Of a stretch of DNA of 64,000 nt, positions 1-25,875 are shown piece after piece; position 1 is the stretch's first letter, and each line of letters starts with the position of its first letter. The position numbers and the translations under genes are program-made. Source of the stretch: an uncultured Flaviramulus sp. Its GTDB lineage: Bacteria; Bacteroidota; Bacteroidia; Flavobacteriales; Flavobacteriaceae. The DNA lies in NCBI GenBank assembly GCA_947501105.1, contig CANMUP010000002.1, forward strand, positions 434,001-498,000, written 5' to 3'. A model generated the notes under the pieces. It had not been told where the DNA came from. It searched no databases and saw only the letters and a program-made list of their open reading frames with translations.

Positions 1-347
1 TCGGCTTCAGCACTGGTAAAACTATACATTTCACTTCCATCTGTTGTGTTAGTAACTGTAAGCCCAATTATTTGCTTAGGAAGTACAAATTTTAATACTA
101 CTGCTTCTCCCTCTTCATACCTTCCTTCTTTGGCTGGATTCCAGCCTAAAACGGCAATTTCTTCTGGAGTAAAAGTTAACCCGGTTTTAGGGTTTATATT
201 ATCAAAATAATACGCAAAGTTAGTTGTATATCTTTCATCTGACCATCCCTCTCCATTATCTTTTGAACACGCACTAAATATTAATGCTACAAACAATAAA
301 AGAAGAGCGGCTATTTTATACTCTTTTATTATATTAATTTTTTTCAT
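1..347 (-). CDS. Lipoprotein downstream of SusCD, truncated by window edge
   Basis: This is the N-terminal part, about 115 residues, of a secreted lipoprotein whose 3' end lies outside the window. It opens with MKKIN, a hydrophobic stretch and a lipobox ending FSAC, so the mature protein should begin at a lipidated cysteine near residue 27. The rest, with GWSDERYTTNFAYYFDN and a later VLKFVLPKQ stretch, resembles the small beta-sandwich surface proteins that follow susCD genes. It starts 16 bp after the SusD stop, so it is very likely the next gene of the same operon. Exact family and substrate cannot be told from the fragment. Confidence 0.75.
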   Translation of the reverse strand, partial: MKKINIIKEYKIAALLLLFVALIFSACSKDNGEGWSDERYTTNFAYYFDNINPKTGLTFTPEEIAVLGWNPAKEGRYEEGEAVVLKFVLPKQIIGLTVTNTTDGSEMYSFTSAEA

Positions 348-363
348 CTTTAATTTTTTTTAG

Positions 364-1869
364 TTATTTCAACTCCCAAATAAGGTCATCTACATCATCT
401 GTTTCTGCTCCAAACTGTGCAACAAGCGCCGCCTTATAATTAACCTCATTATCTGAAAGTTCTGAACCTGGATAAGTCCATCTTACAGGTATTCCAGGGT
501 CTGAAGCTGGAATGTTAAATGAAGAAAAAGGTAAACTTGGTATACCAGACCTTCTCATATTAAAGAAAGATTCTGTTCCAGAATTTTCTGCAAAAGCGAT
601 GTATTTCTGCTCTAATATTCTTGTTAATCCTGGATCTCCAGTAATATATTCAGATACTGATGCTCCTAAATACGCAGTAATAGCATCCTCTTCTGCTCCA
701 TACCATTCCATTGATGCTCTAACAGCGTTATCATAGTGATCTTTTGCATTATTAGAAATCCATCCCCTATGAGCAGCCTCAGCAATTGTAAACTCTTGCT
801 CCCAATAGCTAAAAAACACACCTGGTTGTCCAACATAATTCCAGTATTTTTCTTGATTAGGTTTTGATATTTCTCCATCTAAGGCTCTTGTAATATTATC
901 TGATGGATCTGCAGTAGAATCTGCACCTTCATAAGAATTTGGATCTGCTTTTACAGCAGCAGGATTACCTGGATTTGCATCAATAGCAGCTTGAGTAGGG
1001 TCTGCTACAATAAATAACCTTGGGTCATTATATGACTTAAGCATATCTATATACGTAGTAGCATATACAACTGATGCTTGGTACACACCATTATCTGGTT
1101 GATACGTTTGTTTAAACCCTTCCTCGTTTGCAAAATCTAACTGAGCATTATCACTTAAACTTGTCATCAACGGATATCTATCAGGATTGTTTACAATGTT
1201 ACTAAAACGTCCTTTAACATTAACCTCGGTATCATTTTCCTTTTTACTTAAAGAAATTAATATTCTTAAGGTGTATGAATTAATTAATTTATGCCATTTT
1301 TGTAAATCGCCATTATAATACACATCTCCTACCAAAACATATCCTGGATTTGCTGTTATAAAAGTGCCTAATTCTTGACTAGCTTCATCTAACCAATTTA
1401 ATGCTTGAATATAAACTGATTTAGAAGAGTCGTATTTTGGTCTAGGATTATCAACACCCATCATAGCTTCAGTTAAAGGCACATCTCCCATACGTCGTGT
1501 CATTTCAATATAGGCGCGTGCTGTATAGAACTTTGCTAAAATTTTATACTCTTCAGCATTTGCTACATCTGCCTCTTCTATCATTTTGTTAATGTTTCGA
1601 ATGCTTCCGTAGCTAAAACCACCACCAAAACCAGACCTCATATTTACAGAGCTAATACCATCTGTAGATGCCCATAAATGGTATTGATAATTTATATAGG
1701 TATCAGTAAAAGAATTGGTAGTACTAGGTGTTAAATTAGTAAACAATAAACTAGGAGGTACCGAGTTAGGATCGTTAGGGTTTTCCCTTAAATCTTCGTA
1801 ATCTAAACAGCTATTAACTGTACAGATAGCGAACAAAAATATAATTGATTTTATTAATATTTTTTTCAT
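364..1869 (-). CDS. SusD/RagB-family outer-membrane nutrient-binding lipoprotein
   Basis: The product (501 aa) has a lipoprotein signal with lipobox TVNSC, then a SusD-like helical body beginning LDYEDLRENPNDPNSV, typical of the SusD-like_2 branch. SusD proteins cap the SusC barrel and capture ligand at the cell surface. The C-terminal part carries ITGDPGLTRILEQKYIAF and FFNMRRSG, which match the usual 'taxed residues/row' region of the family. It lies 11 bp after susC in the sigma-FecR-SusC-SusD operon that diverges from the aminoethylphosphonate genes. Family is clear; the ligand (phosphonate-bearing molecule) is inferred only from context. Confidence 0.93.
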   Translation of the reverse strand: MKKILIKSIIFLFAICTVNSCLDYEDLRENPNDPNSVPPSLLFTNLTPSTTNSFTDTYINYQYHLWASTDGISSVNMRSGFGGGFSYGSIRNINKMIEEADVANAEEYKILAKFYTARAYIEMTRRMGDVPLTEAMMGVDNPRPKYDSSKSVYIQALNWLDEASQELGTFITANPGYVLVGDVYYNGDLQKWHKLINSYTLRILISLSKKENDTEVNVKGRFSNIVNNPDRYPLMTSLSDNAQLDFANEEGFKQTYQPDNGVYQASVVYATTYIDMLKSYNDPRLFIVADPTQAAIDANPGNPAAVKADPNSYEGADSTADPSDNITRALDGEISKPNQEKYWNYVGQPGVFFSYWEQEFTIAEAAHRGWISNNAKDHYDNAVRASMEWYGAEEDAITAYLGASVSEYITGDPGLTRILEQKYIAFAENSGTESFFNMRRSGIPSLPFSSFNIPASDPGIPVRWTYPGSELSDNEVNYKAALVAQFGAETDDVDDLIWELK

Positions 1870-1880
1870 CTTAGCTATTT

Positions 1881-4800
1881 TTAAAATTGAAAGTTTATGT
1901 TAAACCCATAAGATCTTTGAGACGGTTGCTGAAGATTTGTGTCTCCAGTTGCAACAGTATATGTGTCTAAATCCCCATAAGTATCATCCTTAGTCCAGTA
2001 TAATAAGTTTCGACCTACTATAGATATGGCTGCTGACTTAAAGAAGGTTTTATCTAAAAGTTTAGAAGGTAAATTATAGGTAAGTGTTACTTCTCTTAAC
2101 TTAACAAATGTTTTTTCTATTTGATTACTTCTCCAATCTGCTTTATAACCTTGCGCCCATTGTGGGTAAGTAATCAAAGTGCTATTAGGCTCAAAAACAC
2201 GTGTATCTTCTAGTACAGCACCTTCAGCATCGTAGGTTACATCTCCAGATACAATTGCCATACCTGGTATTAACATGGTTCTAGCATCTCCGCCAGTTGC
2301 AAAGGCAATATTAGATAATTCTCTTTCTGGGTGTATAGCATCAGGGTGAGAACCTGACCTCCAAAGGTCTCTCTCATATCTATCAAAAGTAGTACCTCCA
2401 AAACGACCATCAATCAAGAAATTAAGTGAGAAATTTTTATACTGAAGAGTATTATTAATACTAGCATTAAAATCCGGTGTAGTTAACCCTAAATCTCTTG
2501 CTGGAGTACTTACTGGTAATCCATTAGAACCTATTATAAGTTGTCCGTCTGAAGTTCGATCCCATGTATTCCACCAGTAATGTCCTAACTCACCTCCAAT
2601 AAATGTTCTACCTTCTCTATCTGGAATAGTACCATCTTCAAGTGGAGGTAAAGAAATTAAAAAATCACTATACTTATCAAAATTAATAATTGTAGTCCAA
2701 GTAAAGTTATTTGCTTTAAAGGGAATAGCTGTTATAGAAAAATCTAAACCTCTACGCTCAGTTGTTCTACCGTTTTGTTGAATACCATTCCACCCAGATG
2801 CAGCAGAAAACGATTGTGTAAATATTTGTGGACCATAGGTGTTTTGAAAATATGAAAAATCTATTCCAAATCTTCCTTTAAATAATTTTGCTTCAAAACC
2901 ATATTCGTAGGTTGACGTAAATGATGGTGATATATTAGGGTTCTCTAATGTACCAGGGTAACTCGCCGTTGGATTGTTTCTCCATCTTCCTCCTGTATCA
3001 TACGAATTTGTGGCATCATATATACCTAAATCCCCACCAACTTTAGCATAAGCTGTTCTAACTTTAAAGAAATCAATAACATCTGGTAAATCAAAAAATT
3101 CACTTAATATAAAACTACCATATATTGATGGGTAGAAAAACGTGTCATTAGCCGCAGGTAAAGTAGAAGATTTATCTACACGACCAGTAATACCAACATA
3201 AAGTTTATTTTGGTAAGCCAAATCTAAGGTTGCATAACCGCTATAAACCCCTTTTTGCTCTTTGTAACTAGTAGGTTGCACTTGATCTACAGAGTTAGAT
3301 AGCTTAAAAATACCTGGTACAATTAAAGCCGTAGTTGTAGCAGATTCTCTGTGATTTCTAAAGTATCTTTGATTACCACCTAACGTTGCATTAACATTAA
3401 ATTCGTCACCAAAAAAATCTTTATTATAAGATATTAAAAAGTCGGTATTATTCTCAAAATAGCGAGAGTTATTATATCTAAAACGTCCTCCTCTGTCACC
3501 AATACTATAGTCATAAATATCTTTATGAATTTCTTCATTATTGGTTAAAGTAAATGCATTTAAAGTAGAACGCACATAAGCACTAACATTATCGTTAAAT
3601 TTGTAAGTAAACTTTAAAAAAGATATAACATCATTCTTTGTCCAAGGCTTTTTCCATGCGTGAGCTAAAATATATGGGTTATTAAAACGCCAATGTTCTA
3701 CAAAGTTTTGACGAATATTTTCTTTTCCAGGTTCCCATATTTGATCTTTAAAGTTTCTAACATCAAAATGCGCACCACCCCAAATCGCTAAGTTATATAA
3801 AGGAGAGGTTGGTCCATAAGTACCTCTAATTCTATTATCTGAAAACTGATAGTTATATTGAATGGAGCCATCAACAGTAAACTTGTCTGATAAATTTAAG
3901 CTTCCCCTTAAACGTGTTGTATTTATATCTAAACGTTGACCCGGTGTAGATGCTTTAGAGTTTTTATATGTATTAGAAATAACAAAACTTCCTTTATCTG
4001 TATTGGTTTGCACCGTTACATTATGAGATGTAACATGACCAACTTCCATAAAGTTTTTAAGGTTATCAGGGCCTCTAGATATCCAGGGTGTAGGAATACG
4101 GTAGCCTGTAACTGGGTCTATCGGTGAATCATATTGTTCAATAAGTCTACCATCAAATTTTGGCCCCCAAATTGAGTAATCAAAATCATTTACTCCTCCT
4201 CCTAGAGTTTTTCCATCGCCGCCAGCTAAACCACCACCGTATCTGTATTGACCGTTGTTACCTGGTCCATACTCAGTTTGAATACTTGGGATTCTTAAAA
4301 AGCCATCTTGAAAAATTGTTGATGAGTTATATGAAATAACTACACCTTTTTTTTGACTTTTACCAGACTTCAACGTTAATTGAATGGCTCCATTTCTACC
4401 TGGAGAACCATATAAAGCTGATGCAGCACCAGATTTTAGCACTGTAATACTTTCAATATCATCAGATGCTAAATTCCAAATATCAGAATTTGTTTGTGGT
4501 ACACCATCTACTACCATTAAAGGCCTACTACCTCTAAGAAAAAATTGAGGGTCAGAAAAGAAATCTGAAGAATTGTTGGTAATTATTAAACCAGCTACTT
4601 TACCTGTTAAAGATTCAACAATATTAGGTGTTACAGCTTTTTGTAAAGCTTCACCTTTTACCTCTTGAACCGCAAAACCAACACGTTTCTTTTCTTTCTT
4701 AATACCAAGCGCCGTAACAACTACTTCTTCAAGTCTAGCTGCATCTTCTATAAGTATTACATTTATCGCTTCTTCATCTCCAACAGTAATAGTTTGGGTT

Positions 4801-5372
4801 TTCATTCCTACATAAGAAAACTCTAACACATCTCCTTTGTTTGCTGTAATAGAATAATTACCATCAAAATCTGTTTGAGTGCCCTTAGAAGTACCAGCTA
4901 TTATAATATTTACACCTGGCAAGGGGACATTACTTTGATCTGTTACAGTCCCAGTTATTTCAGTTTGTTGTTCCTCACTTTTATCTTTTAAGTCAGGTTC
5001 TGGTTTTTTTTCTTTTAATACTATGGTACTGCTATTCGTAAACTTAAAATCGAACGCCTTACTTACCAAGCTCTTTTCTAGTAATTGGTTTGCACCAATG
5101 ATTCCTTTTTTTAGATTTACCTTTGGAAAATTTTTAAACATATCTTCCTGATAAATAAAATTGAAGCTTGTTTGCTCCATGATAAGTTCAAAAACTTGGT
5201 CTACACTCAACGTCTTATCTTCATCAATCTTAATTTTAGTGTTTTGAGATAAGATATTACTTGGTGTAAAGCTAAAAAGCACACTACAGTATAGGAGTAT
5301 AAGTGACCTCATGATAATTAACAGTAGTTTCTTTTTAAAACTAAAAAGAAAGTTAGTTGATTTAATTTCCAT
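1881..5372 (-). CDS. SusC/RagA TonB-dependent receptor with STN signalling domain
   Basis: A 1163-residue outer-membrane transporter. After the signal sequence come an STN domain (about 45-120, starting KIKIDEDKTLSVDQVFELI), a carboxypeptidase-regulatory-like domain (about 138-210, GTVTDQSNVPLPGVNI), a TonB-box-like ARLEEVVVTALG, the plug (VVDGVPQ, ITVLKSGAASALYGSPG) and a long beta-barrel ending in an aromatic-rich strand. The STN domain is the part that contacts a FecR-type anti-sigma factor, fitting the sigma/FecR genes just upstream. The N-terminus, with its second Met before the hydrophobic core, parallels the other SusC of this window, which supports the chosen start. The ligand is not readable from the sequence. 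Confidence 0.95.
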   Translation of the reverse strand: MEIKSTNFLFSFKKKLLLIIMRSLILLYCSVLFSFTPSNILSQNTKIKIDEDKTLSVDQVFELIMEQTSFNFIYQEDMFKNFPKVNLKKGIIGANQLLEKSLVSKAFDFKFTNSSTIVLKEKKPEPDLKDKSEEQQTEITGTVTDQSNVPLPGVNIIIAGTSKGTQTDFDGNYSITANKGDVLEFSYVGMKTQTITVGDEEAINVILIEDAARLEEVVVTALGIKKEKKRVGFAVQEVKGEALQKAVTPNIVESLTGKVAGLIITNNSSDFFSDPQFFLRGSRPLMVVDGVPQTNSDIWNLASDDIESITVLKSGAASALYGSPGRNGAIQLTLKSGKSQKKGVVISYNSSTIFQDGFLRIPSIQTEYGPGNNGQYRYGGGLAGGDGKTLGGGVNDFDYSIWGPKFDGRLIEQYDSPIDPVTGYRIPTPWISRGPDNLKNFMEVGHVTSHNVTVQTNTDKGSFVISNTYKNSKASTPGQRLDINTTRLRGSLNLSDKFTVDGSIQYNYQFSDNRIRGTYGPTSPLYNLAIWGGAHFDVRNFKDQIWEPGKENIRQNFVEHWRFNNPYILAHAWKKPWTKNDVISFLKFTYKFNDNVSAYVRSTLNAFTLTNNEEIHKDIYDYSIGDRGGRFRYNNSRYFENNTDFLISYNKDFFGDEFNVNATLGGNQRYFRNHRESATTTALIVPGIFKLSNSVDQVQPTSYKEQKGVYSGYATLDLAYQNKLYVGITGRVDKSSTLPAANDTFFYPSIYGSFILSEFFDLPDVIDFFKVRTAYAKVGGDLGIYDATNSYDTGGRWRNNPTASYPGTLENPNISPSFTSTYEYGFEAKLFKGRFGIDFSYFQNTYGPQIFTQSFSAASGWNGIQQNGRTTERRGLDFSITAIPFKANNFTWTTIINFDKYSDFLISLPPLEDGTIPDREGRTFIGGELGHYWWNTWDRTSDGQLIIGSNGLPVSTPARDLGLTTPDFNASINNTLQYKNFSLNFLIDGRFGGTTFDRYERDLWRSGSHPDAIHPERELSNIAFATGGDARTMLIPGMAIVSGDVTYDAEGAVLEDTRVFEPNSTLITYPQWAQGYKADWRSNQIEKTFVKLREVTLTYNLPSKLLDKTFFKSAAISIVGRNLLYWTKDDTYGDLDTYTVATGDTNLQQPSQRSYGFNINFQF

Positions 5373-5482: not shown

Positions 5483-6679
5483 TTATTTTATAATTATAGT
5501 GTCGTTTTTTATTTCATAGGCATTTATAAATTTTGTGTTTTTTATTATTGAAAGAATTTCTTCTAAATTTTGACTTTTATTTAATACCCCTATATATTTA
5601 ACTGTTTCCAGTTCTTCATTTAAAATTTGAATGTCCACATTGTACCAGCGGGACAGGACTTTCATAATTTCTTTTAAACTTTTCTTTTTAAAACTGAAGA
5701 CCCCATTTCGCCATGCAATTTCTGGAGCAACATTCACTTCTTTTACTTCTATGTTTTTTGTTTCTTTACTTAAGATAGATTGTTGGTTTGGCTTTAATTC
5801 TTTCTTTTGTACGGTGTTGTCTAAAACTATTTTCCCTTCAATTAGAGTAGTGTAAATAAGAGCTTCATCATGATAGGCTTTAATATTAAACTCAGTTCCT
5901 ATAACTTCAATAGCTTGGTTTTCTGTAAGTATTTTAAAAGTAGCACCATGATGATTTTCACTTGGTGATACATCAAAATAAGCTTCTCCATATACAAGTT
6001 CTACTTGACGGGTTTTTCCTTTTATAAAGTTTTTTGGATATTTTAATTGAGATTCTGAGTTTAACCAAACTTGAGTTCCGTCTTCTAATTTTACAAAAAA
6101 TTGGCCTCCTCTTGGAATGGTTAAATAATTATATACTATTTCAGGTTTAGTATTATTAGCTTTAGATTTATAAACTAACTCTTCACCATTACTAGTTAAA
6201 TTGTCTGCGATGTAATCTTGTCCCTTTTCTAAAGCTATTGTAGATCCATCTTCTAGGGTTAAAATTGCTTTATCTGTACCTATTTTAATTTTTGAATTGG
6301 TATTAACAATTTTTGGAACTTCAATTACTGTACTTGATTGATTGCTATTAAAAAAAGAAATAGTTAAAATTAGTACTAGAACAGCGCAGGCAGCAAATAG
6401 AGGGAAATTTTTATAACCTTTTAATAAGTGAATTTTATTGTTGTTTTGAAGAGCTTCATCTTTGAGTTCATTAGTAGTTAATTGCCGTATTTTATTTTGA
6501 ATCTCAATCCAATCTGCTCTTTTACCATTATTTGTTGCAGTAAGTACCCAAGCCTTTTTTAATTTAAGAAATAAAGACTTATTTTTTGGAGAGGCATCAA
6601 TCCATTCAAATAAGATGGCTATTTCCTCTTCATTAGCGGTATTGGAAAGATACTTGTATATTAGGTTTTGCATTGACAT
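5483..6679 (-). CDS. FecR-family anti-sigma factor
   Basis: 398 aa inner-membrane regulator. Residues 1-90 form the cytoplasmic sigma-binding region; one membrane segment lies near 93-110 (FPLFAACAVLVLILTISFF); the periplasmic FecR domain runs about 185-290 with TIPRGGQFFVKLEDGTQVWLNSE removed to its core PRGG and VWLNS motifs; a DUF4974 domain closes the protein (KKKSLKEIMKVLSRWYNVD). In this family the periplasmic part senses the STN domain of the partner SusC and releases the ECF sigma factor. It follows the sigma gene by 36 bp and is closely similar to the FecR at 14098-15273, so the two systems probably arose by duplication. A second in-frame ATG lies two codons downstream. Confidence 0.94.
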   Translation of the reverse strand: MSMQNLIYKYLSNTANEEEIAILFEWIDASPKNKSLFLKLKKAWVLTATNNGKRADWIEIQNKIRQLTTNELKDEALQNNNKIHLLKGYKNFPLFAACAVLVLILTISFFNSNQSSTVIEVPKIVNTNSKIKIGTDKAILTLEDGSTIALEKGQDYIADNLTSNGEELVYKSKANNTKPEIVYNYLTIPRGGQFFVKLEDGTQVWLNSESQLKYPKNFIKGKTRQVELVYGEAYFDVSPSENHHGATFKILTENQAIEVIGTEFNIKAYHDEALIYTTLIEGKIVLDNTVQKKELKPNQQSILSKETKNIEVKEVNVAPEIAWRNGVFSFKKKSLKEIMKVLSRWYNVDIQILNEELETVKYIGVLNKSQNLEEILSIIKNTKFINAYEIKNDTIIIK

Positions 6680-6696: not shown

Positions 6697-6723
6697 AGTA
6701 CACTTAAAAAGGCATTTACCCTA
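6697..6723 (-). promoter_or_regulatory. Possible ECF-type promoter for fecR-susCD, copy 1
   Basis: On the minus strand TAGGGT (6723-6718) is followed after 16 bases by GTACT (6701-6697). The same TAGGGT-N16-GT arrangement precedes the second fecR at 14050-14077. It overlaps the stop codon of the sigma gene and lies just before fecR. Two copies in matching positions support it, but the consensus of this sigma subgroup was not checked. Confidence 0.35.
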
Positions 6724-7345
6724 TATATAAAATATATTTTTGTAAAAATTGATAAAAAACAAATAGTAGGATTAGAGGCGCATAATGAGCTAATTTTAAT
6801 TTAAGCTCCTTATTAGCTCTTGTTATATTTGCTTCTACGGCTTTAATTGAAATATCTAATTCTTTCGCTATTTCTCTGTTTTTTTTGTTTTCTCTTCGAC
6901 GTTTAATAAAGACTTGTCTGCACCGTTCTGGTAATTCTTGAATTGCTCTTTCTATGATTACTTCTAATTCAGATAAATCCATTGAATCAAAATGTAAAGC
7001 ATTTAATACTTCTATATTTAACTGATTTTCTTTTTCCTGTAATTTCTGTGTTTTGTATTTAAGAACAATATTATTATGCCTAATCTGGTTTAAGCAATTA
7101 GATTTTGCAGATGTAAATAAAAATGCAGGAATTCCAGTATCTTTAATTATCTTCTCTTTGTTGATCCACAAATTTATAAAAGCCTCTTGTGCCATACTTT
7201 TTGACTTATCTTCATCATATAAAAATTGCATGCAAAACCCAACAATGTTATTATAATATTTATCAAAATAATATTGGAAAGCAATCTCATCCCCACGTTT
7301 GAAACGCAGGAAAACAGACTTTTTTGTTAATGAGAGATTTTTCAT
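6716..7345 (-). CDS. ECF RNA polymerase sigma-70 factor (Bacteroidota FecR-associated type)
   Basis: 209 aa. Region 2 covers about 25-90 (YYFDKYYNNIVGFCMQFL, then AQEAFINLWINKEKI) and region 4 about 125-180 (ELPERCRQVFIKRRRENKKNREI broken here as ELPERCRQVF and REIAKELDIS, then VEANITRANKEL). The C-terminus has a hydrophobic extension (LILLFVFYQFL), common in this flavobacterial subgroup and possibly a membrane tether. Its neighbours are the FecR anti-sigma factor and the SusCD operon it presumably activates; it diverges from phnA across a 200-bp region. Confidence 0.93.
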   Translation of the reverse strand: MKNLSLTKKSVFLRFKRGDEIAFQYYFDKYYNNIVGFCMQFLYDEDKSKSMAQEAFINLWINKEKIIKDTGIPAFLFTSAKSNCLNQIRHNNIVLKYKTQKLQEKENQLNIEVLNALHFDSMDLSELEVIIERAIQELPERCRQVFIKRRRENKKNREIAKELDISIKAVEANITRANKELKLKLAHYAPLILLFVFYQFLQKYILYIG

Positions 7346-7409
7346 GAATTAAATTTTAATAGTAAAATAAATGACTCAAATTTTAATATACTATCACTTT
7401 TAATGTGTG

Positions 7410-7417
7410 CAAAATTA
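7410..7417 (-). promoter_or_regulatory. Bacteroidota -7 box for the left sigma-FecR-SusCD operon
   Basis: TAATTTTG on the minus strand fits the TAnnTTTG -7 consensus and lies about 65 bp upstream of the sigma factor ATG. No convincing -33 TTTG was found at the expected spacing, so the call rests on one box. Confidence 0.35.
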
Positions 7418-7510
7418 CATATTAGCTGTAAATATAAGTTAATAAATTGTAAAATTATTATAATATATGTAAAAAATATACTTTTTATTATATTATAAGT
7501 AAAATTATTT

Positions 7511-7518
7511 TACATTTG
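7511..7518 (+). promoter_or_regulatory. Bacteroidota -7 box for the phnA operon
   Basis: TACATTTG matches TAnnTTTG and lies 27 bp before the phnA start. No good -33 box is seen, which could mean that an activator is needed. The shared 200-bp divergent region would let both operons be co-regulated. Confidence 0.4.
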
Positions 7519-7545
7519 TGAAAATTTAATTACAACATATAATTA

Positions 7546-8757: not shown

Positions 8758-8782
8758 TAATAGCCAAAAAATTATCTAATTT

Positions 8783-10210: not shown

Positions 10211-10293
10211 CTAAATAAATATTTAATAGCAAGCTTAAGATAATATCTAGAACTTGTTTTGGTAAAACACAAAAATTATTAAGATTTTATAAA

Positions 10294-13963: not shown

Positions 13964-14049
13964 GATTTTCAATTCAAATAATAGTAATTCATAGCTAAAT
14001 TAGGTGATGAAGGTAATTAAAAAAGATAAAAAAAAAAGAATAAAAAAGT

Positions 14050-18400: not shown

Positions 18401-18992
18401 TATTGTACAAGACACAAATGGAGATGGAGTAATCACATCTGATGATAGAGCAATGCAGGGAGATTTTAATCCAGATTTTACTTATGGTTTTGGGTTTACA
18501 TTAAATTACAAAGGTTTTGATTTATCTGCTCAATTCACTGGAATTGAAGGGAGAAAAGTTTCAGATCATATAATTAACCGTACTGAAAGTGGAGAGGGTT
18601 TCTTTATTCCATCTCAGCATTATTTTGATAACTATTTTAACGATCGCAATCCAGATGGATTCTTTAGAAGACCTGATTTTTCTAGTTTTTCATCAGCTGG
18701 AAGACTAACAAGAAAATCAAACCTTTCAGTACTTGATGGTGACTACTTTAGACTCAGAAGTTTACAAATAGGGTATACATTACCAAGTAGTATAATTGAC
18801 AAATTAAGTATTGATAACTTAAGACTATACTTCACAGGAAACAACCTGTTTAATATCACAAAATTTAGAGGGTATAATTCTGATGGAGTAGATACAAGGT
18901 CAAATGAAAGACAGTCGTTGTCCCGAGGTTATATTGATTCATCAAGTCCATTGACTCGATTTATGGCCATAGGAATGGATATCAAATTTTAA
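15498..18992 (+). CDS. SusC/RagA TonB-dependent receptor with STN signalling domain (second system)
   Basis: 1164 aa. Order of parts: signal region with a second Met (MIIMRTFIFLCC), STN domain about 45-115 (KVKEDKVLTVDEVFDLIMEQ), carboxypeptidase-regulatory-like domain about 133-205 (ISGEITDASGQPLPGANILE), TonB box LDEVVVVGYGT, plug (VVDGNPL, ISILKDAASAAIYGSRASNG), and the barrel with typical SusC strands (LSASIRRDGSSRFG, YFRLRSLQIGYTLP, LRLYFTGNNLFNITKF). The STN domain fits control through the upstream FecR. It follows the more common SusC pattern than the left one. Substrate by context is a glycerophosphodiester or phospholipid-derived molecule, which is inference. Confidence 0.96.
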   Translation: MEIKLTNACFQYRKRLLMIIMRTFIFLCCTMVFALAPNNVISQNSKIKVKEDKVLTVDEVFDLIMEQTDYKFFYEEGIFKDFPKVHLKKGTLKTNKLLNRTLSQGNLNIIVTDNNAILIQEKPKESITSDQQHKISGEITDASGQPLPGANILEKGTTNGTQTDFDGKFSLNVSNENAILVVSYIGFLSQEISVNNQETITVALLEDAAKLDEVVVVGYGTSTKEKFNGSVSKVNSKTLNNYSSANFEQALAGTVSGVQILGNSKNPGDNSVIQIRGLSTLTAGTNPLIVVDGNPLSEGSSLSSVNTNDIETISILKDAASAAIYGSRASNGVILITTKKGNKGKLKVTYNGYVGFQQRIDKFEVTDAYDTALFDLDARNFGYISGGSGRSITDDNATRDANGGGKRSRIPTYLQGYIDGTPGLTNTNWNDAVFRDAMQQNHYLNLSGGNEKSDYSISFGHLDQDNIIIASGYKRYTNNIRFNSQISDRVKFGINTNISMSDATPTGERAWSQTLLGRGRQADPAFTVTLMQPYYPIYNADGSLSIAAQLDDNNQNWDGPISENTIAHVLLSDFTRKGFRLFGNTFVEIEPIDDLKFKTSFGGDYSTSVEEFFSPSTFGNYRTPVASNPAQAAKYDTKRENFIIENLLSYKKTIKSHTIDALFGYSYQQEFRNETDLESRDFADDNIRSVSGATSITATSRSSKWALESYFSRLQYDFDNKYTLSASIRRDGSSRFGANTKYGNFASVSAGWVLSNESFFPEDKLINYAKLRASLGQTGNNQIGDFGSVALITPDNYAIGGSLTSGVYTSTSPNADLSWETNTAVNFGIDLGFLQNKLFFTAEYYTSKTTDLLLDVPVPQQSGFSQSLQNIGELENKGVEFELKGRNFNIGELKIGFNANISQSKNKVLALGNGQSQIIFSSGVDFITKVGEPVAQFYNYNVTGVYKSQSEIDNDPITPLSGTEVGDYIVQDTNGDGVITSDDRAMQGDFNPDFTYGFGFTLNYKGFDLSAQFTGIEGRKVSDHIINRTESGEGFFIPSQHYFDNYFNDRNPDGFFRRPDFSSFSSAGRLTRKSNLSVLDGDYFRLRSLQIGYTLPSSIIDKLSIDNLRLYFTGNNLFNITKFRGYNSDGVDTRSNERQSLSRGYIDSSSPLTRFMAIGMDIKF

Positions 18993-19011: not shown

Positions 19012-20424
19012 ATGAATATCAAATTAAATATTATAACTATAGCCTTAATATCGTTGGTTTTAGGGTCTTGTTCAGAGAAGTTAGATTTGTCCCCAATAAC
19101 GGAAAAGGCAGCAAATAATTTTTATTCTAGTGAGCAAGAAATTGAAAGCGCTATAATAGGAGCTTATGCTCAACTTCAAAATGGAGGTCTTTACGGACTG
19201 GATTTAATAGGAGTTGGTGAAATACCAGGAGAAGATACTTTTGAGGAAATTGCGGCAAACGATGGTGGACGCTTTGGTCAATTAGATGATTTTTCTACAA
19301 ATGCAGGAAATGATTTGGTGGGAGACATATGGAGAGAATCCTATGAAGGAATTCAAAGAGTTAATATTGTTCTTAATAGAATTACAGATGTAGAATATGA
19401 AAATAATACTATAAAGAATAACAGGATTGGTGAAATGAAATTCCTTAGGGGTTTGCTGTACTTTAATCTTGTAAGATTGTATGGTGGAGTTCCATTGGCT
19501 CTTGAAGAAACAACTAATCCTTCTGATTATTTTGGACAAAGTCGTGCTTCGGTATCAGATATTTATGCTCAAATTGAATTAGATTTAAGCGATGCGATTC
19601 AAAATCTTCCACCAGATACTGATAAATTGGTAGGAAGACCGGCTAAAGGAGCTGCTCAAGCATTATTTGCCGATGTACAGATGAACCTGGGCGATTATAG
19701 CGAGGCTGTTACAATTCTTGGACCGCTTGTTAGTTCTGGGAATTACAGTTTAATGTCAACAACAGCAGAAATTTTTGGAGTTGCAAATGAAGGTAATTCA
19801 GAAACCTTATTTGAAGTTCAGTTTGCCAGCGGCGTTGATGGCAATAACGAAGGAGAACCAGCTGCATCGCAATTCAGACCATCTGGTACTACAGCAAATG
19901 CAAAGGGGCATAATTTGCCTTCTGAAGAATTTGTTGCTCTATATGAGGCAGGTGATACACGTATGAATGATTATGTAGGCATAGATGCAGCAGCTAATCC
20001 ATTCTACTTCTCTTTGAAATATGAAGTGTCTACAACTGGGGCTAATGATGGTGGCTCGGACCATATTATTATTAGATTCGCTGATGTGCTGTTAAAATAC
20101 GCAGAGGCATTAAATGAATCAGGAGGAGCAAATGCCGCACAGTATCTTAACATGGTTAGAAATAGAGCAGGTTTAGCAAATACAACCGCTACTACGCAAA
20201 GCGAACTGAGAGATGCCATAGAAATGGAAAGAAGGTTTGAGTTTATAGGAGAAGGGCATCGCTGGTTTGATTTAAAGAGAACTGGAGAAGCAATTCAGAC
20301 TATGAATGCATGGTTTACAGCCAATAATAAAAATATAACTATAAATGCAGATAATCTTATTTTGCCTATTCCTCAAAGTCAAATAGATACAGATCCTGCG
20401 ATTACTCAAAACTCTGGGTATTAA
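19012..20424 (+). CDS. SusD/RagB-family nutrient-binding lipoprotein (second system)
   Basis: 470 aa lipoprotein with lipobox VLGSC. The N-terminal SusD-like_3 region (LDLSPITEKAANNFYSSEQE) is followed by TPR helices (FLRGLLYFNLVRLYGGVPL) and the C-terminal SusD domain (IIIRFADVLLKYAEALNE, EMERRFEFIGEGHRWFDLKR, ending ILPIPQSQIDTDPAITQN). It starts 19 bp after susC and forms the lid of that transporter. This is a classical SusD, unlike the SusD-like_2 type of the left system, so the two pairs are not simply recent copies. Confidence 0.96.
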   Translation: MNIKLNIITIALISLVLGSCSEKLDLSPITEKAANNFYSSEQEIESAIIGAYAQLQNGGLYGLDLIGVGEIPGEDTFEEIAANDGGRFGQLDDFSTNAGNDLVGDIWRESYEGIQRVNIVLNRITDVEYENNTIKNNRIGEMKFLRGLLYFNLVRLYGGVPLALEETTNPSDYFGQSRASVSDIYAQIELDLSDAIQNLPPDTDKLVGRPAKGAAQALFADVQMNLGDYSEAVTILGPLVSSGNYSLMSTTAEIFGVANEGNSETLFEVQFASGVDGNNEGEPAASQFRPSGTTANAKGHNLPSEEFVALYEAGDTRMNDYVGIDAAANPFYFSLKYEVSTTGANDGGSDHIIIRFADVLLKYAEALNESGGANAAQYLNMVRNRAGLANTTATTQSELRDAIEMERRFEFIGEGHRWFDLKRTGEAIQTMNAWFTANNKNITINADNLILPIPQSQIDTDPAITQNSGY

Positions 20425-20607: not shown

Positions 20608-21540
20608 ATGAAAGCATATTTTTATATACTTCTTTTTTTTATGGCATTAATGTCTTGCAATAAAAAGGCATTAATTAAAAATAAAAAAAGTGAAAAGGAG
20701 TTTAAAATCTCTTCAATTCAAGAAAAGATTGCAAACTTTAAAGATTCAAAAAATAAAGAAATCATTGTGGTAGCCCATCGTGCAGATTGGCGCAATGCAC
20801 CAGAGAACTCATTACAAGCCATACAAAACTGTATCGATATGGGTGTAGATATGGTAGAAATTGATGTTAGAAAAACAAAAGACAATCAACTAGTTGTTAT
20901 TCATGATAGAACAATAGATAGAACCACAACAGGAAAAGGCTATGTTAAAGACTGGTCACTAGATTCATTAAAAACTTTACGATTAAAAGATGGGTTAGGA
21001 GTGCCAACACAGCATAGGATACCAACCCTTAAGGAAGCATTATTGGTTACTAAAGACAAGATATTGGTCAATTTAGATAAGAGCTACGATATTTTTGATG
21101 AGTGTTATGAAATCATCAAAGAAACACAAACCCAAGACCAAGTCATTATTAAAGGAGCTATAAGTAAACCAGAAGTCGAGCAAGAATTCGGGCAGTATTT
21201 AGATAAAGTTCTTTTTATGCCTGTAGTAAGACTTCATAAACCTGGAGCCAAAGAAATAGTAGATCAATACATGCTGTTGTCTCCTCCCGAAGCCATAGAG
21301 TTTACTGCTAAATATGATACACTTCAAGGTATAAACAGATTTAAAAAACTAAGAGAACAAGGAACAAGTGTTTGGGTAAATTCTCTTTGGCCACAACACA
21401 ATGGCGGACATGATGATGAAAAAGCAGCCGTAAATCCTTCAGTATATGATTGGTATATAAATAATGATGTAGATATCATTCAAACCGATAGACCTCAATT
21501 ACTCTTAAATTATTTGAGAAGCAAAGGACTTCACAATTAA
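20608..21540 (+). CDS. Lipoprotein glycerophosphodiester phosphodiesterase
   Basis: 310 aa, lipoprotein signal with lipobox ALMSC, so it acts outside the cytoplasm. GDPD motifs are present: the catalytic His-Arg (H57-R58) in VVAHRADWRNAPENS, the metal ligands in VEIDVRKTKD, and the second His in VVIHDRTIDRTTTGKG. The family hydrolyses glycerophosphodiesters to sn-glycerol 3-phosphate and an alcohol. It follows susD by 183 bp and has a strong terminator after it. It is paralogous to the enzyme at 23591-24547. Some relatives of this fold act on other phosphodiesters, so the exact substrate is open. Confidence 0.92.
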   Translation: MKAYFYILLFFMALMSCNKKALIKNKKSEKEFKISSIQEKIANFKDSKNKEIIVVAHRADWRNAPENSLQAIQNCIDMGVDMVEIDVRKTKDNQLVVIHDRTIDRTTTGKGYVKDWSLDSLKTLRLKDGLGVPTQHRIPTLKEALLVTKDKILVNLDKSYDIFDECYEIIKETQTQDQVIIKGAISKPEVEQEFGQYLDKVLFMPVVRLHKPGAKEIVDQYMLLSPPEAIEFTAKYDTLQGINRFKKLREQGTSVWVNSLWPQHNGGHDDEKAAVNPSVYDWYINNDVDIIQTDRPQLLLNYLRSKGLHN

Positions 21541-21644: not shown

Positions 21645-22949
21645 ATGATAAATTATTTTAAAAAGTCATTACCTCAAGAATCTAATAAAACAGATGAAGA
21701 AAAAAAAGCGCTTTATAAGAAATTAAAATGGCAGGTCTTTATTTCTGCTACTTTAGGATATGGGTTATACTATGTATGTCGTTTAAGTTTAAATGTGGTT
21801 AAAAAACCTATAGTAGATAGCGGACTTTTAACCGAAACAGAACTTGGTATTATTGGGTCTGCGTTATTTTTCTCGTATGCCATAGGAAAGTTTACAAATG
21901 GCTTTTTAGCAGATCATAGCAATATAAAACGGTTTATGTCTGTAGGACTTTTAGTGTCTTCTTTAGCAAACTTAATTATGGGTTTTACCAGTAGCTTCTT
22001 ATTTTTTGCTATATGTTGGGGTGTTAATGGTTGGGTGCAATCTATGGGAGCGCCTTCAAGTGTAGTGTCTTTATCACGGTGGTATAAAGATAAAGAGCGT
22101 GGGAGTTTTTATGGGTTTTGGAGTACGAGTCATAATATTGGGGAAGCTATAACCTATATACTTACAGCCGTAGTAGCCTCTTATTTTGGATGGCAATGGG
22201 GTTTTAGAGCTGCTGCTATAGTAGGTGTTTTAGGTGCTTTAATGATTGCTATATTTTTTCATGATACTCCGGAAAGCAAAGGTTTACCAACAGTAAATGA
22301 AGATTTTAGTAAAAAGAAATCATCAACTTGGAATGAGCAAAAAGGGGTTTTAAAAAACCCCTACGTATGGTTGCTAGCTTTATCTAGTGCTTTTATGTAT
22401 ATATCCAGATATGCGGTAAACAGTTGGGGACCTTATTATTTTGAAGCTGCAAAAGGGTATACGCTTACTCAAGCTAATAGTTTAGTAGCTATAAGTGCAG
22501 TATGTGGTATTTTAGGAACGGCATCTTCAGGATTTGTATCAGATAAATTTTTTAAAGGAAGAAGAAACGCACCAGCACTTATTTTCGGACTCATGAATGT
22601 ACTAGGGATTTCACTTTTTCTACTTGGACCAAAAAATGTTTGGTGGGTTGATGTGACAAGTATGGTGATTTTTGGGTTAGCCATAGGTGGTTTAATTTGT
22701 TATTTAGGAGGCTTAATGGCAGTGGATATCGCATCAAAAAAAGCATCAGGAGCAGCTTTAGGCATTGTTGGAATTATGAGTTATGCTGCCGCAGGCATTC
22801 AAGATATTGCTAGTGGGTATCTTATTGAAAACAACAAAGCAATTGTTGATGGAGAAACCATTTATAATTTCGATACTATTACTATATTTTGGATTGGAGC
22901 TGCAATTCTGTCTTTTGTATTAGCATTATTTACTTGGAAGAAAACTTGA
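21645..22949 (+). CDS. OPA-type MFS transporter, probable glycerol-3-phosphate permease
   Basis: 434 aa with about 12 membrane segments. It belongs to the GlpT/UhpT branch: KWQVFISATLGYGLYYVCRLSLNV (here YYVCRLSLNVVKKP), FTNGFLADHSNIKRF, and WGVNGWVQSMGAPS in helix 4. GlpT relatives import sn-glycerol 3-phosphate in exchange for phosphate. The gene lies between two extracytoplasmic phosphodiesterases that would release just that compound, so the glycerol-3-phosphate role is a good inference. It begins a compact set: 8 bp to the HAD gene, then 18 bp to the second phosphodiesterase. Confidence 0.9.
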   Translation: MINYFKKSLPQESNKTDEEKKALYKKLKWQVFISATLGYGLYYVCRLSLNVVKKPIVDSGLLTETELGIIGSALFFSYAIGKFTNGFLADHSNIKRFMSVGLLVSSLANLIMGFTSSFLFFAICWGVNGWVQSMGAPSSVVSLSRWYKDKERGSFYGFWSTSHNIGEAITYILTAVVASYFGWQWGFRAAAIVGVLGALMIAIFFHDTPESKGLPTVNEDFSKKKSSTWNEQKGVLKNPYVWLLALSSAFMYISRYAVNSWGPYYFEAAKGYTLTQANSLVAISAVCGILGTASSGFVSDKFFKGRRNAPALIFGLMNVLGISLFLLGPKNVWWVDVTSMVIFGLAIGGLICYLGGLMAVDIASKKASGAALGIVGIMSYAAAGIQDIASGYLIENNKAIVDGETIYNFDTITIFWIGAAILSFVLALFTWKKT

Positions 22950-22957: not shown

Positions 22958-23572
22958 ATGAATAAAATTAAAAATATTGTTTTTGATTTAGGAGGAGTTA
23001 TAATGAATCTTAATGTTCCTAAAACTATTGAGGAGTTTGAAAGGTTAGGAATAACTAACATTGTAAATAGTACTGGACACCACTATACGGATTCTATTTT
23101 TTATGATTTTGAGATTGGAGCAGTATCAGAAGATGAATTTGTAAATAGACTTTCTGAGGTATCAAATTCTAATATATCTTATAAAGCCATTAAAGAGGCT
23201 TGGAATGCTATGATATTGAATATGCCTAAAGAAAGAATTGAAATGCTTATTAATTTAAAAAATGATTATAAACTATACCTTTTAAGTAATACAAACAGTA
23301 TACATCAAGAAAAATTTGAAAGAGAATTCAAAATTCATAATGGCTATGATTTTAAAGATTTATTCAATAAAGTATATTATTCTCATCAAGTAGGAATTAG
23401 AAAACCAGAAGAAGAAATATTTCATTTTGTTCTTAAATCAAGTAAATTAGAAGCAAAAGAAACTCTTTTTATTGATGATTCATTTGAAAACATAAAAGTT
23501 GCTCAAAAAGCTGGAATTCAAACGTATCATATAAATTACAAAAACACATTAAATAGTTTGTTTAATAATTAA
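22958..23572 (+). CDS. HAD-superfamily (IA, YihX-like) phosphatase
   Basis: 204 aa cytoplasmic hydrolase. Motif I is FDLGGV with the nucleophile D10, motif II is LLSNTN, the Lys motif is GIRKPEEEIF and motif IV is FIDDSFEN. The Gly in place of the second motif-I Asp is usual in YihX-type members. Family members dephosphorylate sugar phosphates and related compounds. Between a GlpT-like permease and a phosphodiesterase it could act on glycerol 3-phosphate, but this is only context. Confidence 0.88.
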   Translation: MNKIKNIVFDLGGVIMNLNVPKTIEEFERLGITNIVNSTGHHYTDSIFYDFEIGAVSEDEFVNRLSEVSNSNISYKAIKEAWNAMILNMPKERIEMLINLKNDYKLYLLSNTNSIHQEKFEREFKIHNGYDFKDLFNKVYYSHQVGIRKPEEEIFHFVLKSSKLEAKETLFIDDSFENIKVAQKAGIQTYHINYKNTLNSLFNN

Positions 23573-23590
23573 TATATAATAACAGTGGTT

Positions 23591-24547
23591 ATGAAAAATA
23601 TAATATTCGTTTCATTATTGATAGTTTTCTTTATCTCTTGTAAAGGTGATAAGAAAGATAAAACAGAATTCAAAATATCTGATAATAAGAGTTCTAGTCT
23701 TATTTTAAATAAATTAAAAAACCCATCTTCAGAATATATATTAACTGTTGCTCATAGAGGAGACTGGAGAAATGCTCCAGAAAACTCTGTTGATGCAATT
23801 AAAAGAGCTATTGATATGGGAATTGATATTGTTGAAATTGATATTCGAAAAACAAAGGACAATCATTTAATTGTAATGCATGACAAATCTGTTAATAGAA
23901 CGACAACAGGTAAAGGTAAAATAGCAGAAATATTATTGGATTCAATTCAAAAGCTTGTACTTAAAAATGGAGCTGGGATGCCTACAAAGCATGAAGTGCC
24001 AACACTTAAGGAAGTTATGAATTTTGTAAAAGGTAAACCTGTATTACTTAATTTGGATAAAGCCTGGGATAATTTACCAGAAAGCTACGCAGTTTTAAAA
24101 GAAACGGGAACAATAAACCAAGCTATTTTCAAGGGTAATGATCCATTGCATGTCATGAGAGAAAAGCATGGAAAGCTAATGGATAGTATTAATTATATGC
24201 CTATGGTGTGGCCAATTAACTATAACATTTATGGAGAAACTTCAGAAGCACCTGATGTTTATGCTAAAGGGTTTATTGATAAATATAACCCAATTGCATT
24301 TGAGGTTATTTATGATAAAGAAGATTCTCCTGTAATAGATGCCATTGCTTTAATGAAGAAAGAAAATATTTCAGTTTGGGTCAATACATTATGGGATGAA
24401 TTATGCGCAGGTCATACAGATGATAAGGCTTTAGAAAATCCAGATGCACATTGGGGATGGATTATAGAAAAAGGAGCCAATGTTATTCAAACTGATCGTC
24501 CTAAAGAATTAATGGAATATCTAAAAGGCGAAGGGTTGCATGATTAA
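23591..24547 (+). CDS. Second lipoprotein glycerophosphodiester phosphodiesterase
   Basis: 318 aa from the ATG at 23591; a GTG two codons upstream is less likely. Lipobox FFISC follows a hydrophobic stretch, so it is extracytoplasmic. GDPD motifs: VAHRGDWRNAPENS with H55-R56, VEIDIRKTKD, and VMHDKSVNRTTTGKG. A late WVNTLWDELCAGHTDD insert with the same pattern as the first enzyme (WVNSLWPQHNGGHDDE) shows both belong to one subgroup. It ends the permease-HAD operon. Why two related enzymes are kept in one locus is not clear; they may differ in headgroup preference. Confidence 0.92.
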   Translation: MKNIIFVSLLIVFFISCKGDKKDKTEFKISDNKSSSLILNKLKNPSSEYILTVAHRGDWRNAPENSVDAIKRAIDMGIDIVEIDIRKTKDNHLIVMHDKSVNRTTTGKGKIAEILLDSIQKLVLKNGAGMPTKHEVPTLKEVMNFVKGKPVLLNLDKAWDNLPESYAVLKETGTINQAIFKGNDPLHVMREKHGKLMDSINYMPMVWPINYNIYGETSEAPDVYAKGFIDKYNPIAFEVIYDKEDSPVIDAIALMKKENISVWVNTLWDELCAGHTDDKALENPDAHWGWIIEKGANVIQTDRPKELMEYLKGEGLHD

Positions 24548-24636
24548 TAATTGATTATTAAAAACTAAATTATTTAAAATTTGATAATTCGTGTTAAGGT
24601 TTTCTTGTTTTATTTCTGTTTTGTTATGTTTAGCTT

Positions 24637-24644
24637 TAAATTTG
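24637..24644 (+). promoter_or_regulatory. Bacteroidota -7 box before manA
   Basis: TAAATTTG fits TAnnTTTG, 28 bp before the manA ATG. A TTTG upstream (24620-24623) is too close for a normal -33 box. It suggests manA has its own start, apart from the phosphodiesterase operon. Confidence 0.4.
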
Positions 24645-24672
24645 CATTGCACTAATCAATAACTTAAAGAAG

Positions 24673-25875
24673 ATGCCTAAATTATTTGCTCTTAAAGGAA
24701 AAATTCAAAATTACGCTTGGGGCGGAACCAAGTTTATTCCTGAATTACTAGGGCTTGAAAGTAATGACGATAAATGCGCAGAATATTGGTTAGGTGCACA
24801 CGTAAATGCTCCCTCTGTAATATCGACACCTGAGGGCAACCAAAATTTAGATAGCTATTTAGCGTCTCATAGTGTTGAAAGTTTAGGCAATGAAGTTGTT
24901 GAAAATTTTGGTAGACTTCCTTTTCTGTTTAAAGTATTGGATGTATACGATATGCTATCTATTCAAGTACACCCAACTAAAATTGAAGCTGAAAAAGGAT
25001 TTAGACATGAAAATGAATTAGGGATACCTTTAACGGCCCCTCATAGAAACTATAAAGATGATAACCATAAACCAGAAATCATGGTGGCTCTTAGTGAGTT
25101 TTGGTTATTGCATGGGTTTTTATCTAAAGACAAGTTGGTTGAAAGACTGAGAAATACTCCAGAGTTTGTCAATATGTTGTCCGTTTTTAACGAAGCTGGT
25201 TATTTTGGTTTGTATAAAAGAGTTATGGAGCAATCAGTTGATGAAACAAACCAAATATTAACATCATTAATAAACCGTATAATGCCATTATACTTGCAAG
25301 GTAAGCTGGATAAATCTAGTCCAGATTATTGGGCTGCTAAAGCTGTAGACTCATCAACAGATAAAAGTGTTTTAGACAAAGGCATTTATTCTATCTATTT
25401 TTTCAATATCGTTAAAGCTAATAAAGGTGAAGCTATTTTTCAGGATGCTGGAATTCCTCATGCTTACCTTGAAGGGCAAAACATGGAACTTATGGCAAAT
25501 TCAGATAATGTTTTGCGTGGTGGTTTAACTCCAAAGCATATAGATGTACCTGAGTTATTAAAACATGTAGCTTTTGAAGAAACTATACCAAATGTTATGG
25601 AAGGAAGCTTACAAGAAGATGGTATTGAAAGAATTTACAAAACTCCAGCACCAGATTTTGAGCTTAGCAAAATAGATTTAAAAATATCTGATATCTATAA
25701 ATCTAATACAAAAACTGCTCAAATTTTAATAGTTATTGACGGTGAAGTAGAAATCGTTACAGATAGTAATAAGTTAACTATAGGTAAAGGTGAATCGGCT
25801 TTTTTAGAAGCAGATTGTAAATATGTAATATCTTCTCTATCTAATACAACAATATATAAAGCTACAACACCCTAG
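24673..25875 (+). CDS. manA: Mannose-6-phosphate isomerase, class I
   Basis: 400 aa cytoplasmic zinc enzyme interconverting mannose 6-phosphate and fructose 6-phosphate. Family marks are LKGKIQNYAWGGTKFIPELL (here NYAWGGTKFIPELLG), SIQVHPTKIEAEKGF with metal-ligand His, NHKPEIMVAL, GIPHAYLEGQNMELMANSDN and LRGGLTPKHID. Length and the second cupin half near the C-terminus (VIDGEVEIVTDSN, IGKGESAFLEAD) are normal. It is the last gene of the plus-strand run; a connection to the phosphorus genes is not evident. Confidence 0.95.
   Translation: MPKLFALKGKIQNYAWGGTKFIPELLGLESNDDKCAEYWLGAHVNAPSVISTPEGNQNLDSYLASHSVESLGNEVVENFGRLPFLFKVLDVYDMLSIQVHPTKIEAEKGFRHENELGIPLTAPHRNYKDDNHKPEIMVALSEFWLLHGFLSKDKLVERLRNTPEFVNMLSVFNEAGYFGLYKRVMEQSVDETNQILTSLINRIMPLYLQGKLDKSSPDYWAAKAVDSSTDKSVLDKGIYSIYFFNIVKANKGEAIFQDAGIPHAYLEGQNMELMANSDNVLRGGLTPKHIDVPELLKHVAFEETIPNVMEGSLQEDGIERIYKTPAPDFELSKIDLKISDIYKSNTKTAQILIVIDGEVEIVTDSNKLTIGKGESAFLEADCKYVISSLSNTTIYKATTP

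Follow-up and report, generated by a model that had tools for sequence, protein, structure and literature searches.

The usual interpretation of SusC–SusD pairs (SusCDs) is that they import glycans, and counts of such pairs serve to assess which polysaccharides marine and gut Bacteroidota feed on. For 2-aminoethylphosphonate (AEP), the catabolic pathway of PhnW, PhnY and PhnA via phosphonoacetaldehyde and phosphonoacetate is established, and the transporters AepXVW, AepP and AepSTU act at the inner membrane. These three are the characterized AEP importers according to the available portion of PMC8316502. SusCD clusters for organophosphorus compounds (PUS, with the PusCD transporters) have been published for Flavobacterium johnsoniae and its relatives (Lidbury et al., 2020; PMC8115612); the available parts of that paper describe clusters that carry phosphodiesterases (pf00149 and pf16670 in PUSI) and, in some strains, phosphonate-degrading enzymes, with sigma factors in PUSI and PUSIII as well. 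Here we analyse a 64,000-nucleotide stretch of DNA from an uncultured Flaviramulus sp. of the Flavobacteriaceae (the window), which begins with two SusCD sets, one of them diverging from a phnA-phnY-phnW operon. The sequence comparisons make it probable that these are two adjacent SusCD organophosphorus nutrient modules, each with its own sigma/FecR pair, and that SusCD1 belongs to a subfamily of the SusD-like_2 type for choline, ethanolamine and AEP head groups, a specialization that we infer from the neighbouring genes. Genomes and fetched loci are designated G and L, respectively, and our own genome is G000.

Unit 1 lies on the minus strand in the order extracytoplasmic function (ECF) sigma factor 1 (6716..7345; TIGR02985, 139.8 bits), the anti-sigma factor FecR1 (5483..6679; PF16344 and PF04773), the TonB-linked outer-membrane transporter SusC1 (1881..5372; TIGR04056, 493.2 bits, cut-off 368), the SusD-like_2 outer-membrane lipoprotein SusD1 (364..1869; PF12771, 213.5 bits) and, as the third gene from SusC1, a LamG/trans-sialidase-C lipoprotein, of which the 5' part is in the window (3..347) and the full protein of 611 residues runs past it (PF22925, 43.4 bits, and PF13385, 41.0 bits, for the full protein). 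The phn operon starts 200 nt away on the plus strand. It encodes the phosphonoacetate hydrolase PhnA (7546..8757; TIGR02335, 447.9 bits, cut-off 407.55), a PhnY-like phosphonoacetaldehyde dehydrogenase (8783..10210), the AEP aminotransferase PhnW (10294..11409; TIGR03301, 413.7 bits, cut-off 360.8), a PuuR-like helix-turn-helix (HTH)–cupin regulator (11420..11983; PF01381 above its cut-off, PF07883 and PRK09943 under theirs) and the OPA-like transporter MFS1 (11980..13275; PF07690, with the best family, TIGR00881, under its cut-off), a candidate inner-membrane AEP importer. The intergenic gaps are 25, 83, 10 and -4 nt, MFS1 overlapping the HTH–cupin gene by 4 nt. PhnA and PhnW pass the equivalog cut-offs of the PhnWYA pathway in the profile search, PhnW scoring 347.1 against TIGR02326, under the 400.8 cut-off of that family; for PhnY, TIGR03250 is the top match of 45 families and the score falls slightly under the cut-off (631.9 versus 635.65 bits). 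Of the 17 named Bacteroidota PhnA loci, 15 have a protein at least 69% identical to MFS1 next to phnW (in two pieces at L145).

The original prediction had recognized two ECF sigma/FecR/SusC/SusD sets, and open reading frames and profile searches find every gene where it was placed and in the family named. The divergence of set 1 from the phn operon was also correctly read. The description of phnA-phnY-phnW as a full operon holds for the three phn genes, while its reasoning left out the HTH–cupin regulator (11420–11983) and the OPA-like MFS (11980–13275). The label 'STN-SusC' stands for SusC (TIGR04056, 493 and 864 bits) and less so for STN; Pfam calls no STN domain in either SusC, and the N-terminal extension, about 138 residues long, is STN-like by eye only.

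The gene neighbours of SusD1 relatives bear on what SusCD1 takes up. All 36 places of relatives at E ≤ 1e-60 were fetched (our own locus was read from the window and from L073, which is cut), and the genes within 9 kb were searched at E ≤ 1e-20 for PhnA, PhnW, PbfA, PhnX-like proteins, phospholipase C, NPP-type phosphodiesterase, purple acid phosphatase, alkaline-phosphatase-superfamily protein, GDPD, ethanolamine permease, BetA and BCCT. Head-group or organophosphorus genes adjoin 31 of the 36 relatives, a count corrected by hand in that our own locus was added (its phn genes lie in the window) and L193 was dropped (a 23% match to a generic aminotransferase). Adding the strong relative L099 (9.2e-77), which a scoring of three candidates per genome had passed over, gives 32 of 37, the misses being L188, L082, L190 (partly masked), L200 and L193. 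Such a gene is also found at 12 of 17 weaker relatives (corrected by hand from 14 of 18, since L099 moved to the strong set and L171 is a generic aminotransferase match). The 12 SusD2 relatives next in rank, at 34–38% identity, served as the control. None of these SusCD loci has a head-group or organophosphorus gene (32/5 versus 0/12, Fisher p = 6.7e-8), so that proximity to phospho- or phosphono-head-group catabolism sets the proposed subfamily apart, in a comparison that leans in its favour: the reference families were drawn from SusD1 neighbourhoods and several loci match themselves. Several neighbours exceed NCBI cut-offs, namely BetA (823) and BetB (766, NF009725; TIGR01804 is under its own cut-off) at L094, an ethanolamine permease (455) at L099, where it is accompanied by phospholipase C, PbfA in Kriegella (727) and at L153 (717), and a PhnX-like protein (237) and TIGR03364 (404) at L165. 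The remaining labels come from BLAST to these reference proteins, the L196 permease being only 35% identical.

Pfam tallies of the downstream genes are free of that reference-family bias. The tally at 31 of 35 relatives (own locus omitted; 48 of 49 proteins, one SusC-like protein omitted), which took in no more than two genes per locus, each unmasked, on the strand of SusD and 150 residues or longer, gives alkaline-phosphatase-superfamily proteins (8), purple acid phosphatase (7), LamG (6), PF01663 phosphodiesterase (4), Exo_endo_phos (3), phospholipase C (2), sulfatase (2) and CBM9 (2), with no glycoside hydrolase (GH) among the best 25 of 31 families. Downstream of the control pairs (up to three genes at 11 of 12 loci; 28 of 32 proteins, four SusC/SusD-like proteins omitted) are PIG-L (5), MFS (4), sulfatase (3), PF01663 (3), GH66, GH31, GH78, ROK and SusE/F, the equal counts suggesting that the PF01663 matches are the same sulfatases. 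Some weaker SusD1 relatives have GH16, there together with GDPD. The comparison of gene neighbourhoods across Flavobacteriaceae that had been proposed as a check thus places the SusCD1 relatives mostly beside phosphatase, phosphodiesterase, phospholipase C and LamG genes and not beside GHs, and the organophosphorus link is therefore not accidental.

These data also bear on whether SusCD1 is an ordinary glycan importer that takes an AEP- or phosphoethanolamine-decorated glycan, with the sugar backbone as its ligand. We consider this unlikely. The LamG and trans-sialidase-C domains in the third unit 1 gene and the sulfatases beside two SusD1 relatives (L082 and L185) speak for it, as do several solved SusD relatives that are named as glycan-binding, the three best matches being called only 'SusD homolog' or 'putative'. 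It is harder to reconcile with the downstream tally, with the 20 window proteins scanned against Pfam, which include no GH or polysaccharide lyase family or other carbohydrate-active enzyme (CAZyme), and with sister clades that adjoin choline and ethanolamine catabolism.

Those clades were delineated in a SusD tree of 62 rows built by a quick method, with neighbour labels that we assigned. Its starred branches are a choline/NPP branch (11 of 12 rows), a PhnAYW branch (10 of 15 rows; two have phospholipase C and three none of these genes) and an ethanolamine/phosphatase/PbfA branch (15 rows). The labels change 22 times on the tree, compared with a mean of 42.9 after shuffling (none of 200 shuffles was as low), a clustering that near-copies favour. 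The SusC tree is concordant (15 changes versus 33.6) and carries a long-branch warning. In the third SusD branch, rows labelled ethanolamine and rows labelled PbfA are intermixed, which is what recognition of their common aminoethyl-phosphorus group would predict. PhnAYW itself is scattered on the tree (seven changes, at least four of them forced by the starred branches), and the operon has therefore repeatedly been paired with different SusCDs.

Two further observations concern relatives of SusD1. Ten loci (L092, L094, L095, L096, L191, L192, L194, L198, L199 and L204) make up a branch in which an NPP-type phosphodiesterase and a TetR regulator accompany the SusCD; L094 and L194 also have BetB-BetA. 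This branch is likely to be a choline-phosphoester uptake locus. At L132 (G393:C10), between phnA and PbfA and on the same contig as phnA, a SusD1 relative (27% identity) is accompanied by NPP, purple acid phosphatase and ethanolamine-type genes.

PhnA (TIGR02335 above cut-off) is rare, occurring in nine of 397 Flavobacteriaceae genomes, and eight of the nine have a SusC and SusD pair within about 10 kb of it. Five of the eight have the SusD1 clade (G000, G146, G179, G330 and G344) and three a different SusCD (G001, whose SusD gives a weak match of 29.5% across 122 residues, G020 and G393); in G229 there is no SusCD anywhere in the 51 kb fetched around PhnA. From first-look candidate counts in five of the nine genomes, the chance of such a pair within 10 kb is roughly estimated at 20–43%, for which the binomial p of eight in nine ranges from 2e-5 to 0.0065. 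SusD1 relatives of at least 55% identity, scored for three candidates per genome, occupy ten places in seven of the 397 genomes. PhnA is present in five of these seven versus four of the other 390 (table 5/2/4/386, Fisher p = 3.2e-8), and in all five shared genomes a member of the SusD1 clade adjoins phnA. Across the named collection, 11 of 17 Bacteroidota PhnA loci, a set that overlaps with the nine genomes, have an SusCD within 10 kb (the 18th PhnA locus, L151, is from a Chromatiales symbiont and was left out). They come from Snuella, the uncultured Flaviramulus, Wocania, four Arenibacter, Kriegella, an uncultured Flavobacteriaceae bacterium, Membranihabitans and one metagenome-assembled genome, whose locus (L144) shows as its sole SusD a 25% match.

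Genome islands could gather SusCD sets and catabolic operons without any functional coupling, and the neighbourhood would then be accidental. SusCD pairs are indeed abundant, as the estimate of perhaps 20–43% conveys, and units 1 and 2 are adjacent in this genome only among the loci seen. Against this, eight of nine PhnA genomes remain unexpected even at 43% (p = 0.0065), PhnA co-occurs specifically with one SusD clade, and the head-group genes separate the SusD1 relatives from the control; we regard an accident as very improbable.

Several findings nevertheless weigh against SusCD1 being an importer for head groups. The pair is dispensable, as six of the 17 named loci lack one within 10 kb (Aestuariivivens, on a short contig, and five Arenibacter), and the five Arenibacter loci carry an apparent TRAP transporter instead. 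Outside Flavobacteriaceae, an SusCD accompanies one of eight other PhnA loci (G683 only); six of the eight are from one genus, two of the stretches from that genus are nearly one-sided and G766 is under the PhnA cut-off. PhnAYW also occurs beside distant SusCDs (in Wocania, Membranihabitans and the uncultured Flavobacteriaceae bacterium), and the SusD1 type is therefore not tightly tied to AEP. Half of the ten places of the clade of at least 55% identity are away from PhnA (two beside phospholipase C and three where no such gene was found), and L154 and L206 are counted solely through a weak alkaline-phosphatase-like protein. A partial reverse test located ten ethanolamine-permease places in 199 genomes (nine above cut-off), four of them no more than about 10 kb from a SusD1 relative (two strong and two weak) and six away from any. 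The LamG and trans-sialidase-C domains and the sulfatases fit glycans too. Finally, no AEP-releasing enzyme was identified in the window; phospholipase C was considered for this role and rejected, as PF05506 was not found in the genome.

The Arenibacter loci (L138–L143, L145 and L150) record how the pair comes and goes. A conserved protein that by eye resembles a TRAP large subunit directly precedes phnA in the five loci without SusCD; in L139, L142 and L150 it is also present, with the SusC1–SusD1 pair lying between it and phnA. In Arenibacter, the pair is a cassette that is acquired or lost whole. In six genomes from a single genus in a different family (L119–L124) the setting is another one: PhnA is 67–69% identical, and the stretches fetched, two of which are nearly one-sided, show no SusCD.

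Beyond the window start, in a partly masked region, the strand of SusD1 encodes a MORN protein, a type IX secretion system-type protein, a DAO+GcvT flavoprotein, two proteins that by eye resemble electron-transfer-flavoprotein (ETF) subunits, PurU (355.9, cut-off 285.95) and a PbfA-type gene (G000:C2:416772-418079) that scores 712 against a cut-off of 525, with the generic NF004755 scoring 725. This gene lies about 16 kb outside the window and about 24 kb from phnA. The group from the PbfA-type gene to the flavoprotein (G000:C2:416772-425649; L184 and L073) is possibly a module for N-methyl- and hydroxy-AEP, judging from its gene content. In the available text of PMC10590968, the AEP-cluster flavoenzymes PbfB, PbfC and PbfD oxidize N-methyl-AEP. 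PbfA is above cut-off in seven of the nine PhnA genomes, our own included, and in six of these it shares a contig with phnA, at a distance of at most about 45 kb. In Kriegella aquimaris it directly precedes phnA-phnY-phnW (727 bits, cut-off 525; L083:15284-16639 and L146:8569-9924). A 2025 paper (PMC12366243), in the portion available, states that the pbfA-phnY-phnA combination is confined to Proteobacteria; K. aquimaris is a Bacteroidota exception to that statement.

Unit 2 begins with ECF sigma factor 2 on the minus strand (13373..13972; TIGR02985, 128.1 bits) and continues on the plus strand with FecR2 (14098..15273; PF16344 and PF04773), SusC2 (15498..18992; TIGR04056, 863.8 bits, cut-off 368), SusD2 (19012..20424; PF07980, 137.3 bits), the lipoprotein GDPD1 (20608..21540; nearest Protein Data Bank sequence 3i10), the OPA-like organophosphate transporter MFS2 (21645..22949; best family under its cut-off), a HAD phosphatase (22958..23572; top NCBIfam match glucose-1-phosphatase, under cut-off) and the lipoprotein GDPD2 (23585..24547). 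GDPDs cleave glycerophosphodiesters. Both GDPD lipoproteins combine GDPD and DUF4996 domains (PF03009 and PF16387 in Pfam) and have a lipobox as judged by eye. A class I mannose-6-phosphate isomerase, ManA, follows (24673..25875; TIGR00218, 235.6 bits), and its membership of the unit is uncertain. The two units share 42% identity across a 364-residue stretch of their SusCs and 51% in their FecRs. Their SusDs differ in Pfam type, SusD1 being SusD-like_2 (PF12771) and SusD2 SusD_RagB/SusD-like_3.

That set 2 runs into two lipoprotein phosphodiesterases, an OPA permease and a HAD phosphatase had been foreseen, and these are the two GDPD lipoproteins, the OPA MFS and the HAD protein. GDPD adjoins six of the eight best other SusD2 relatives (L084, L085, L086, L087, L089 and L090); of the other two, L097 has a purple acid phosphatase and L088 has neither. 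L090 (G000:C5) is a second copy of unit 2 in the same genome, with sigma, FecR, SusC, SusD, GDPD, HAD, GDPD and MFS and without ManA. The stretches of these eight relatives contain neither phnA nor ManA, and GDPD is absent from all 30 PhnA loci (28 distinct) fetched outside our own genome. The proposal of one phosphonate plus glycerophosphodiester counterpart of a polysaccharide utilization locus (PUL) therefore survives in the organophosphorus link of its SusCDs and not as a single island: unit 2 is a separate glycerophosphodiester module, and the locus is two neighbouring modules. Separately, four loci (L098, L157, L159 and L161) have an SusCD beside a GDPD that is fused to or adjoins GH16, perhaps for phosphoglycerol-decorated glucans.

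In the mechanism that we propose for module 1, SusC1–SusD1 with the LamG surface lipoprotein would capture molecules with an aminoethyl-phosphono head group (lipid fragments or glycans to which AEP is attached) and import them in a TonB-dependent manner, the head group being on a carrier too large for porins. A putative periplasmic or surface enzyme would free AEP, which the OPA-like MFS1 may carry across the inner membrane into the cytoplasm, where PhnW, PhnY and PhnA would convert it to phosphonoacetaldehyde, phosphonoacetate and finally acetate and phosphate. The observed PbfA/PurU/flavoprotein group would extend the range to hydroxy- or N-methyl-AEP. Judging from the architecture, the SusC N-terminal extension, FecR and the ECF sigma factor would sense the cargo and induce the module's own expression. 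In module 2, SusC2–SusD2 would import glycerophosphodiesters for cleavage by the GDPD lipoproteins, the OPA MFS would import glycerol phosphate or sugar phosphate, and the HAD protein may dephosphorylate it. The predicted structures of SusD1 (pLDDT 56.4, eight sequences) and the LamG protein (pLDDT 44.2, five sequences) are too poor for a ligand pocket to be read from them. More broadly, and only tentatively, the SusD-like_2 subfamily around SusD1 may be a dedicated outer-membrane uptake family for phospholipid and phosphonolipid head groups, with choline, ethanolamine and AEP branches, through which marine Bacteroidota would 'selfishly' import head-group conjugates, for example fragments of ceramide-AEP from marine invertebrates, much as PULs bring in glycans. 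Ceramide-AEP of marine invertebrates is a plausible AEP source.

A system of the kind described by Lidbury and coworkers, induced by low phosphate and serving mainly to acquire phosphorus, would have the same layout of ECF sigma factor, SusCD, phosphoesterases and inner-membrane transporter, and the available text reports PusCD beside phosphonate-degrading enzymes (PMC8115612). This explanation is a substantial possibility that nonetheless falls short of an even chance. The relatives of SusCD1 sit with carbon and nitrogen catabolism (betaine and ethanolamine), and the local sigma/FecR pair suggests induction by substrate, although sigma factors are also reported for PUSI and PUSIII; the PUSI phosphodiesterases, as far as that text goes, are pf00149 and pf16670 and not GDPD. 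If the head-group reading is correct, many SusCDs would have to be annotated differently, as members of a subfamily linked to choline, ethanolamine and aminophosphonate head groups, and an AEP step at the outer membrane would let Bacteroidota enter the marine cycling of aminophosphonates and lipid head groups.

Nine proteins scanned from the rest of the window include an M56 peptidase, a Na/Ca exchanger, glutamine synthetase III, RF-1, methylmalonyl-CoA mutase, a P450 and an M49 peptidase, with no organophosphorus gene among the nine. The M56 peptidase at 26552–28609 is of the BlaR1 type and has a C-terminal TonB-plug-like domain. Promoter searches gave chance results, both for sigma-70-like sites in 7200–14200 (32 versus 33.4 expected) and for a Bacteroidota-type pattern across the window (3 versus 3.76).

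Compared with known systems, the locus shares the sigma/FecR/SusC/SusD core with a PUL and differs from it in its catabolic genes, which are for organophosphorus compounds; the CAZymes that accompany SusCD in a PUL are absent from the 20 window proteins scanned. With the PhnW–PhnY–PhnA pathway it shares PhnA and PhnW above their equivalog cut-offs, PhnY as top match and the ancillary PbfA-type gene 16 kb outside the window, and differs in the pairing with SusCD and an OPA-like MFS. As in PUS, SusC/SusD pairs and ECF sigma factors stand beside phosphodiesterase and phosphonate enzymes in place of CAZymes; the Pfam domains of PusD1 (pf07980 and pf14322; PMC8115612) are those of SusD2, and SusCD1 may have a close counterpart among the six PusCD forms. 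The differences here are GDPD+DUF4996, a SusD1 of the SusD-like_2 type and a PhnWYA operon with an OPA-type MFS. Identification of unit 2 as the PUSI of F. johnsoniae was rejected on enzyme family (PF03009 and PF16387 here versus pf00149 and pf16670 in the portion available). In the open-licence literature, no paper was found in which a SusD clade is linked to head groups of the choline, ethanolamine and AEP kinds, and the available parts of PMC5561996, PMC8154272 and PMC8812569 add nothing to Lidbury's PusCD that would connect SusCDs with such head groups. The kind of system is already known, since SusCD organophosphorus clusters that include phosphonate enzymes precede it; what is new is the proposed head-group SusD subfamily, the marine PhnWYA–SusCD link and the presence of PbfA with PhnYA in Bacteroidota.

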